The notes under the pieces are model-generated. The model was not told the DNA's origin and did not search any database. It saw nothing but the letters and a program-made list of their open reading frames with translations. DNA of 42,104 nucleotides from Neisseria sp. (GTDB lineage: Bacteria > Pseudomonadota > Gammaproteobacteria > Burkholderiales > Neisseriaceae). The position numbers and the translations under genes are program-made. The stretch lies in the NCBI GenBank assembly GCA_030538415.1, contig JAUNTY010000021.1, forward strand, positions 1 through 42,104, written 5' to 3'. Shown piece by piece: positions 21,319 through 32,596 of this stretch (position 1 is its first letter; each line of letters begins with the position of its first letter).

Positions 21319-21437
21319 GTCGTTTTTCCAGCGGTGAAAATCCACAACCGCATTATCCGGAAGCGCTGCTTAATACCGATTTTTAAAAATAAGCCGACTT
21401 CATTGGCTCCCTTCGCCGCACCATTCGTCTTCGGCTC

Positions 21438-21478
21438 TAGGGCTTCCTGACAGCGCAGTGGTGTCAGGAAGCCCTAGT
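21438..21478. repeat. Hairpin repeat, copy 1
   Basis: CTAGGGCTTCCTGACA pairs with TGTCAGGAAGCCCTAG around a short GCGCAGTGG loop. A near-identical copy occurs at 33797-33835 upstream of proB. No T-run follows, so it is a dispersed repeat more than an obvious terminator. Confidence 0.8.
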
Positions 21479-21596
21479 GACGGCAATTGTCGGTTTTCTC
21501 AAACATAGCGAGTTATTGAACGCTTCGCTTTTTCAGACATTTCACTACAGCCGAACAACATATCTTGCATACAAGGCAGCAAGCCGCAGACAGTAC

Positions 21597-21793
21597 GAGG
21601 CCTTTGCAAAATACTTTTTTCTTGGAAATATCCATTATATCCGTCATTCCGGCGCAGGCCGGAATCCATAGCTCGCCATAAAAACCCATTTGAAATCAAA
21701 TAACTGAATCTTGGAGAAATGGGTTTCGGCCTGCGCCGGAATGACGAAGCGGATGCTTTTTCGATGCAGCAAAAGGTATTTTGCAAAGGTCTC
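21597..21793. repeat. dRS3/NIME-like composite element A (197 bp)
   Basis: Order: left arm (21597-21645), dRS3-like 20-mer ATTCCGGCGCAGGCCGGAAT (21646-21665), 57-bp core (21666-21722), inverted dRS3 with two mismatches (21723-21742), right arm (21743-21793). The ends are GAGGCCTTTGCAAAATAC and its inverse. AGTAC flanks both sides. The arrangement fits neisserial intergenic mosaic elements (repeat units bounded by dRS3). A second copy lies at 32135-32331. Confidence 0.85.
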
Positions 21794-21800
21794 AGTACGA

Positions 21801-32064: not shown

Positions 32065-32105
32065 GAGGCCTTTGCAAAAAAATAACCGTCGCCCCCGCCT
32101 GCGCG
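32065..32105. repeat. Solitary arm of a dRS3-type element
   Basis: GAGGCCTTTGCAAAAA followed by ATAACCGTCGC and CCGCCTGCGC. The same segment occurs inverted at 32533-32571, the right arm of the DUS-anchored element, so this is either a truncated copy or one arm of a larger nested structure. Confidence 0.65.
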
Positions 32106-32134
32106 AACTACTGTCCGGAATAACCTCAGAGGCC

Positions 32135-32331
32135 GAGGCCTTTGCAAAATACCTTTTGCTGCATCGCAAAAGCATCCGCTCCGTCATTCCGGCGCAGGCC
32201 GGAATCCATCGCTCGCCATGACACCCCATTTGAAATCAAATAACTGAATCTTGGAGAAATGGATTCCGGCCTGCGCCGGAATGACGGATGTAATGGATAT
32301 TTCCAAGAAAAAAGTATTTTGCAAAGGCCTC
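32135..32331. repeat. dRS3/NIME-like composite element B (197 bp)
   Basis: Same length and parts as element A: left arm (32135-32185), perfect 20-bp dRS3-like repeat (32186-32205), 57-bp core (32206-32262), perfect inverted dRS3 (32263-32282), right arm (32283-32331). The core is in the same orientation as in element A, but the arms are exchanged and inverted. AGGCC flanks both sides (32130-32134 and 32332-32336). Confidence 0.88.
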
Positions 32332-32596
32332 AGGCCGTCTGAAAAGCTGAAAGGCTGAAACCTTTGAAAAATTCACCTGCCCGTCGCATTCGCGCAGGCG
32401 GGTGCCCAGCCTGAAGCGACACTTCAGCTCGAACTTGCCAGCTTTGAAAATGTGCAACCTCATGATTCAGTCTGGATTTTCAGAATCAGAAAAATTGGTA
32501 GACAAGCAAAGCTGCGCTTTGCACTGGGCATCCGCCTGCGCAGGTGCGACGGTTATTTTTGCAAAGGTTTCAGCCTTTCAGCTTTTCAGACGGCCT
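32332..32596. repeat. 265-bp element with perfect 35-bp DUS-anchored inverted ends
   Basis: Bases 32332-32366 are the exact inverse of 32562-32596. Each arm begins with AGGCCGTCTGAA and ends CTGAAACCTTTG. Similarity continues inward through GTCGC and GCGCAGGCGG to GCCCAG on both sides. The roughly 115-bp centre shows no gene. It lies just downstream of proB and could also terminate that transcript. Confidence 0.85.

Follow-up and report, generated by a model that had tools for sequence, protein, structure and literature searches.

The locus analyzed here raises the question whether a short segment that lies between two inverted dRS3 repeats can be turned around, and if so, by what. The window, i.e. 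the whole stretch of 42,104 nucleotides of a Neisseria sp. that was analyzed, contains two related elements in which the central core is flipped relative to its arms, and an earlier note on this DNA had suggested that the dRS3 pair is an active recombination site. To answer the question, the copies of the element were compared within the genome of the window (assembly G000; 2.84 Mb, 106 contigs, 96.4% complete) and in relatives. We conclude that the flip is genuine and most probably due to template switching at the dRS3 hairpin, where the inversion step is read from the footprints that it would have left.

The two elements have the size and the positions that were originally given, 197 bp at 21597..21793 (element A, plus strand) and 197 bp at 32135..32331 (element B, minus strand). 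On the basis of sequence alignment and the copy catalogue, element A is a MITE-like unit of the A-type, with the order arm1 - core forward - arm2. Its arm1 (21597..21645, plus) starts with the terminal inverted repeat GAGGCCTTTGCAAAATAC and ends with a CGTC tag, and is followed by the left dRS3, ATTCCGGCGCAGGCCGGAAT (21646..21665, plus), the 57-bp core (21666..21722, plus), which is reversed relative to the arms when set against B-type copies, the inverted right dRS3 with two changes (21723..21742, minus) and arm2 with the second terminal inverted repeat (21743..21793, minus). The target duplication AGTAC is found at 21592..21596 and at 21794..21798; the outer parts of the element and this 5-bp duplication are intact. 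Element B is of the B-type and reads on the minus strand as arm1 - core reversed - arm2. It contains a perfect inverted repeat of 30 bp, with the left half at 32180..32209 (plus; dRS3 at 32186-32205) and the right half at 32259..32288 (minus; dRS3 at 32263-32282), around a 57-bp core (32206..32262, plus). The flanking duplication AGGCC occupies 32130..32134 and 32332..32336, and the right one consists of the first five bases of an uptake sequence, AGGCCGTCTGAA, at 32332.

Alignment bears out the exchange of arms that had been noticed: the left arm of A equals the inverse of the right arm of B at 48 of 49 bases and the right arm of A the inverse of the left arm of B at 48 of 51, and the two cores indeed lie the same way round in the window, with four differences over 57 bp. 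The inverted repeats had been put at 20 bp; the perfect repeat in B measures 30 bp, and in A the two changes in the right dRS3 reduce the match to 18 of 20 dRS3 letters. When A is compared with the inverse of B per ten bases, the identity is 9-10/10 throughout the arms and dRS3 (6/6-7 in the last short step) and only 1-6/10 within the core. Given this collapse of identity between near-identical surroundings, the orientation of the core is unambiguous. Single-strand folding gave strong hairpins for both elements (z -13.9 for B and -9.6 for A). More terminal-repeat motifs of the same kind are present near element B, at 32065 and within 32357-32571, where they enclose dRS3-free sequence. Upstream of element A (21425-21483), a strong palindrome, CTAGGGCTTCCTGACA...TGTCAGGAAGCCCTAG, is located between CGTC and GACGG, and a dRS3 was possibly once present there.

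The genome was searched with both elements and with the junction of arm1 and dRS3, which resulted in a catalogue of at least 55 copies. This figure is a minimum, as the similarity searches with A and B covered the best 40 of 232 and the best 40 of 175 candidates; the junction pattern occurs at 53 places, all of which are in the catalogue. The copies are bounded at both ends by terminal inverted repeats, GAG(A/G)CCTTTGCAAAATAC. Among the 53 copies with both flanks, the target duplication is complete (5/5 letters) in 37 and agrees in at least 4/5 letters in 47, and the longest open reading frame that lies wholly within A encodes 42 aa, leaving no coding capacity for a transposase. These are the characteristics of a MITE, and the 197-bp unit thus behaves like one, with a dRS3-core-dRS3 cassette inside it. 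A parent transposon was sought among the two DDE_Tnp_1 (PF01609) genes of the genome, but neither has such ends. The unit preferentially inserts into the DNA uptake sequence AGGCCGTCTGAA at its AGGCC end, as observed for 30 of the 53 copies with both flanks (32332-32343 being the example in the window). Likewise, locus L221 of the relative G011 has a clean empty site in Neisseria dentiae, with a single GGCCT, again at an uptake sequence. Within the genus, 25 of 46 genomes, including that of the window, contained a match to the element, and all of the others were distant. The element arm gave no matches in viral contigs and none in a genome-contig collection from which records near the window's genome may be absent.

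The cassette and its repeats were also encountered in other forms. A longer dRS3, with ~25 extra and partly palindromic bases (AGCTTCGCAAGTCCGCTACGCTACC and variants) at a fixed place within the repeat, was seen in L084, L182, L071, L073, L185, L183 and L189 and in L253 and L257 of N. dentiae; it is located on the arm1 side in some copies and on the arm2 side in others, and is also found in unrelated elements. L191 (contig C101 of G000) is a half element in which another small repeat substitutes arm1 exactly at the CGTC tag, so that the junction was made at dRS3. A second type of MITE, with TATAG-like ends, bears dRS3-core-dRS3 cassettes as well (L181, L176, L179 and L184 in G000; L128, L130, L132 and L133 in relatives), and as judged by eye the orientation of the cassette varies by species (L128/L132/L133 versus L130).

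To establish whether the difference between A and B has a wider meaning, the orientation of the core was scored against the arms over all copies and in relatives, as the earlier note had advised. Both orientations are present. The catalogue of at least 55 copies comprises six A-type (L001-L006) and 49 B-type copies, where L072 and L075 run into contig ends and were typed on a single side, and six extra partial or variant copies (L180, L182, L185, L188, L190 and L191) are B-type by eye. The genome G011 likewise holds both forms. The other copies thus do not share one fixed orientation, and the dimorphism is no two-copy accident. A tree was made of 50 of the 55 copies, omitting L071, L073 and L084 for their long dRS3 and the truncated L072 and L075. 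All 12 copies outside the main cluster are B-type, and the B form, which is also that of the majority, is therefore probably ancestral. The minimum number of type changes on the tree was four for the full sequence and for the arms and six for the core, and the A copies formed no single supported clade. A single origin of the A form was considered but not adopted: tests of a single A clade yielded p values of 0.068 (full sequence), 0.038 (arms) and 0.26 (core), which leave the number of independent inversions unfixed. The frequency of four-gamete conflicts is much the same within segments (3/10, 50/153 and 12/55) and between segments (32/90, 22/55 and 59/198), so that the events are not firmly countable. 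Every A copy bears a core variant that is also present in B copies, and L002 (A) clusters with L074 (B) at a support of 100/97, with a common arm variant and a common core variant. One arm letter is common to three A copies and occurs in no young B copy. In all, recurrence of the inversion within this genome is likely, although not proven.

G011, which was assembled as one contig, and N. dentiae (G012) possess elements of the same architecture with other arms (a to e) and other cores (x and y). The best 40 candidates were scored per genome, out of 978 and 951, and 77 of the 80 fetched loci had a dRS3 pair (L212, L229 and L268 had none). Among the 77 sampled elements, core x is combined with arms a and b as b-x-a in 12 cases and as a-x-b in five cases in G011, against eight and zero in N. 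dentiae; for arms b and d the two orientations amount to eight and four in G011 and to 14 and zero in N. dentiae. Flips were thus found in 9 of the 29 testable sampled copies of G011 and in 0 of 22 in N. dentiae (Fisher p 0.0065, where related copies are taken as independent, although for instance L214 and L215 are near copies). The count is based on the 51 elements in which core x is combined with arms a/b or b/d. It includes L219 despite a marginal arm call (39 vs 37) and L221 despite a divergent core (score 31), whereas L225 (a tie) and L209 are outside it; the arm calls of L253 and L257 are doubtful. Arms b and d both contain the uptake sequence AGGCCGTCTGAA, implying that the elements with these arms themselves carry DNA uptake signals. 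In L251 of N. dentiae the 8-base centre of the left dRS3 is reversed, a smaller flip of the same kind.

Loci that are shared by G011 and N. dentiae were compared via their masked flanks. Both flanks match in four pairs (L203/L243, L206/L248, L210/L246 and L217/L258), L205/L247 match on one flank, and in L209/L237 one flank matches while in G011 the other is displaced by ~1 kb, on the far side of an insertion. L208/L245, a single-flank match between different elements, was excluded. The orientation of the core agrees at all six usable loci and is inverted in place at none. In addition, the nine flipped loci of G011 were searched for in N. dentiae. For seven of these (L214, L215, L216, L220, L221, L226 and L231) both flanks are found together in N. 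dentiae, where the site has no dRS3 element, although those of L214, L215 and L220 contain other sequence with similar ends. The flanks of L218 are separated by ~10 kb, and the sequence retrieved around each of them contains no dRS3; L228 is cut by a contig end and uninformative. The testable flips consequently sit in insertions that are not common to N. dentiae, and no in-place flip between the two genomes was seen, neither at shared loci nor at the flipped loci of G011. The simplest reading of A and B is still that the core was inverted between the dRS3 repeats, and the same difference is seen in other copies and in a second genome, but no such event was caught in place at shared loci. The notion of an active recombination site is not supported: with a constant orientation at the six usable loci, the sequence data speak against frequent switching on this time scale.

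We lean towards DNA-polymerase template switching at the dRS3 hairpin as the cause of the flips. The substrate would be the ~30-bp inverted repeat (dRS3) that flanks the 57-bp spacer inside the MITE-like unit. The polymerase would leave its template within one dRS3 and resume on the complementary strand at the other dRS3, after which the core would be copied backwards; upon return of the polymerase, the core would be inverted with the arms and flanks as before. If the jump copied outward instead, one arm together with its dRS3 would become the inverted copy of the other arm. In the accessible text of PMC8604942, arm homogenisation and spacer inversion are the two outcomes of template switching between inverted repeats, and that of PMC8794818 describes loop inversions with bacterial cases included.

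The outward product was recovered at L209 of G011, the right arm of which is the exact inverse of its own left arm (33/33 and 17/17 letters on the two sides of an insertion). The arm copy includes a variant of that locus, and both dRS3 carry the same two changes. In L237, which represents the same locus in N. dentiae (flanks 96-97%), the right arm is different (38/50) and the dRS3 are consensus. Arm homogenisation has thus occurred at one locus common to two species; this is in agreement with template switching, whereas a site-specific invertase would not be expected to generate such a product. The sequence inserted into the right arm of L209 (L290 562-1415, G011) contains overlapping frames of 199 and 116 aa that match DDE_3 and HTH_Tnp_IS630; this IS630-type insertion has TATAG ends like those of small TATAG repeats. 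L225 and, by eye, L219 look like cases of partial arm copying.

Other footprints are of a statistical nature. The two dRS3 of one element share variant letters 44 times in the 77 elements of the relatives, against a mean of 27.5 and a maximum of 35 in 5000 shuffles, where subfamily descent may be part of the explanation since mostly one common variant is involved; in G000 no variant letters were shared between the two dRS3 in any of the 53 full copies. The flipped cores of G000 are near the cores of their arm relatives (3.7 vs 5.3 differences, p 0.012), which favors an event inside one element, and the same test gave p 0.079 in G011 with the canonical copies of both genomes as pool. Element A combines its inverted core with intact arms and target duplication, and in the comparison of G011 and N. 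dentiae the two forms never occurred at one locus. The length of the spacer counts against template switching, as the spacer inversions tabulated in the accessible text of PMC8604942 concern spacers of a few bases and the present one measures 57 bp. Considering the whole, we infer that the polymerase jump behind the arm copying also produced the core inversions, more than once, and rarely in view of the six shared loci without a flip. In the part of the literature that was covered, we found no description of dRS3 core flips or of template switching at dRS3.

The main rival is a swap of cores or arms between dispersed copies at dRS3, either through gene conversion or following natural transformation, in which the mirror-image ends of the cassette would allow either orientation. 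Exchange between copies is real: the N. dentiae sample includes the chimeras c-y-a (one), c-y-b (two), b-y-d (one) and c-x-a (one clear and one doubtful), so that dRS3 also acts as a joint between elements. Furthermore, arm1 and arm2 are uncorrelated among 37 young copies of G000 (r -0.12, p 0.83) and the arms correlate with the core at only r 0.38, and the sharing of core variants between A and B copies mentioned above also speaks for a swap. As the cause of the flips, however, exchange would require two events within ~30-bp repeats with the donor aligned backwards, whereas one crossover joining a left to a right dRS3 would result in loss or duplication of the core. The grouping of L002 with L074 and the closeness test (p 0.012) connect the flipped cores to their own arm lineage, and the self-copied arm of L209 is left unexplained. 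We therefore regard this route as possible but rather unlikely. Somewhat less likely still is a broader reading, according to which the dRS3 pair is a general shuffling joint. In these Neisseria, a putative host activity with dRS3 as its site would then recombine and invert two core types and no fewer than five arm types into many combinations, and its rate would vary by species, as the 9/29 versus 0/22 flips hint.

A dedicated enzyme appears improbable. Site-specific inversion at dRS3 by the Piv/IS110-type transposase of filamentous prophages (PivNM/Irg), at present or in the past, has in its favor that Nf phages integrate at dRS3 (PMC3898611 and PMC4471427, in their accessible parts) and that the suggestion of a phage integrase recombining dRS3 elements is reported in the former. 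Moreover, G011 has two IS110 matches along with its 9/29 flips, and N. dentiae has none along with 0/22 (sampled). Across the genus, matches were obtained in 16 of 46 genomes, but that of the window, a 106-contig draft for which six candidates were scored, was not among them in spite of its flips. The constant orientation at the six shared loci and the arm copying, unexpected from an invertase, point the same way. The specific recombinase that the earlier note had brought up thus lacks a match in G000 and N. dentiae, although G011, with the most flips, has two, and G000 is a draft; we lowered this candidate and did not discard it. A REP-associated tyrosine transposase (RAYT) that excises the dRS3 doublet and re-inserts it as a REPIN in either orientation seems far more remote. 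The accessible text of PMC3733652 places dRS3 in the CGTC-1 REP family, mainly as head-to-head dimers and without a dedicated transposase. G000 has one RAYT gene (NF047646, 169.6 bits; L164 1309-1800, contig C46), but by eye its flanks are different, GTAG-tagged palindromes, GTAGGTCGGGCAGTCATGCCCGACA, and N. dentiae gave no Y1_Tnp match. The candidate was lowered because the sole gene is flanked by another palindrome, and not by the cognate repeat that characterizes a REPIN. The gene and its palindromes constitute a separate REP system in G000.

If the two 30-bp inverted repeats within an element recombined by RecA-type crossing over, exactly the A and B forms would result, and the repeat of B is perfect over this length. 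Short repeats that are 57 bp apart would be poor substrates, however, and L209 would not be produced, which makes this explanation quite improbable. Hardly any weight can be given to an assembly error, in which short reads were wrongly joined through the repeated dRS3. Although inverted repeats are a classic source of ambiguity and G000 is split over 106 contigs, the repeat is just 30 bp, the right dRS3 has decayed in L001 and L002, and the dimorphism is also seen in the single contig of G011.

The available text of PMC3898611 lists dRS3 as the second most abundant repeat class in meningococcal genomes, and that of PMC9778887 associates NIMEs with more rearrangements than any other feature in N. 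gonorrhoeae and N. meningitidis. A phage integrase has been proposed among the causes. If spacer flips and arm copies are preserved as footprints in a dispersed family, such a family would be a natural archive of template switching in bacteria, and counts of these footprints in complete genomes would separate the competing causes. At the same time, the data serve as a warning that a difference in orientation between dRS3 repeats need not represent an active switch.

The element resembles several known systems. With NIMEs, as described in the accessible parts of PMC3898611 and PMC9778887, it has in common an inverted dRS3 pair around a short repeated segment, the intergenic location and the modular combinations, and the 57-bp core falls within the ~50-150 bp of their repeated unit. 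The NIME consensus for dRS3, ATTCCC(N8)GGGAAT, is found in G011 and N. dentiae, but G000 has ATTCCG(N8)CGGAAT, and we therefore term the element NIME-like. Here the cassette is moreover embedded in a unit that has terminal repeats and is flanked by target duplications of 5 bp, and the orientation of the core is dimorphic. The mirror-image palindromic pairs with CGTC at their outer ends recall REPINs and CGTC-tagged REP dimers (PMC3733652 and PMC3116915, accessible parts), although in the present case the flanks belong to a larger MITE-like unit and the RAYT of G000 is flanked by a GTAG palindrome. Piv-type invertible segments share the inverted sites around a segment that is present both ways, but G000 has no recombinase match and there is no sign of ongoing switching. 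With the polymerase template-switch mutations of PMC8604942 (accessible part) the agreement extends to both outcomes, spacer inversion and arm homogenisation, around dRS3; the differences are that inversion in place has not yet been seen, that the spacer measures 57 bp and that the substrate is a dispersed mobile family.
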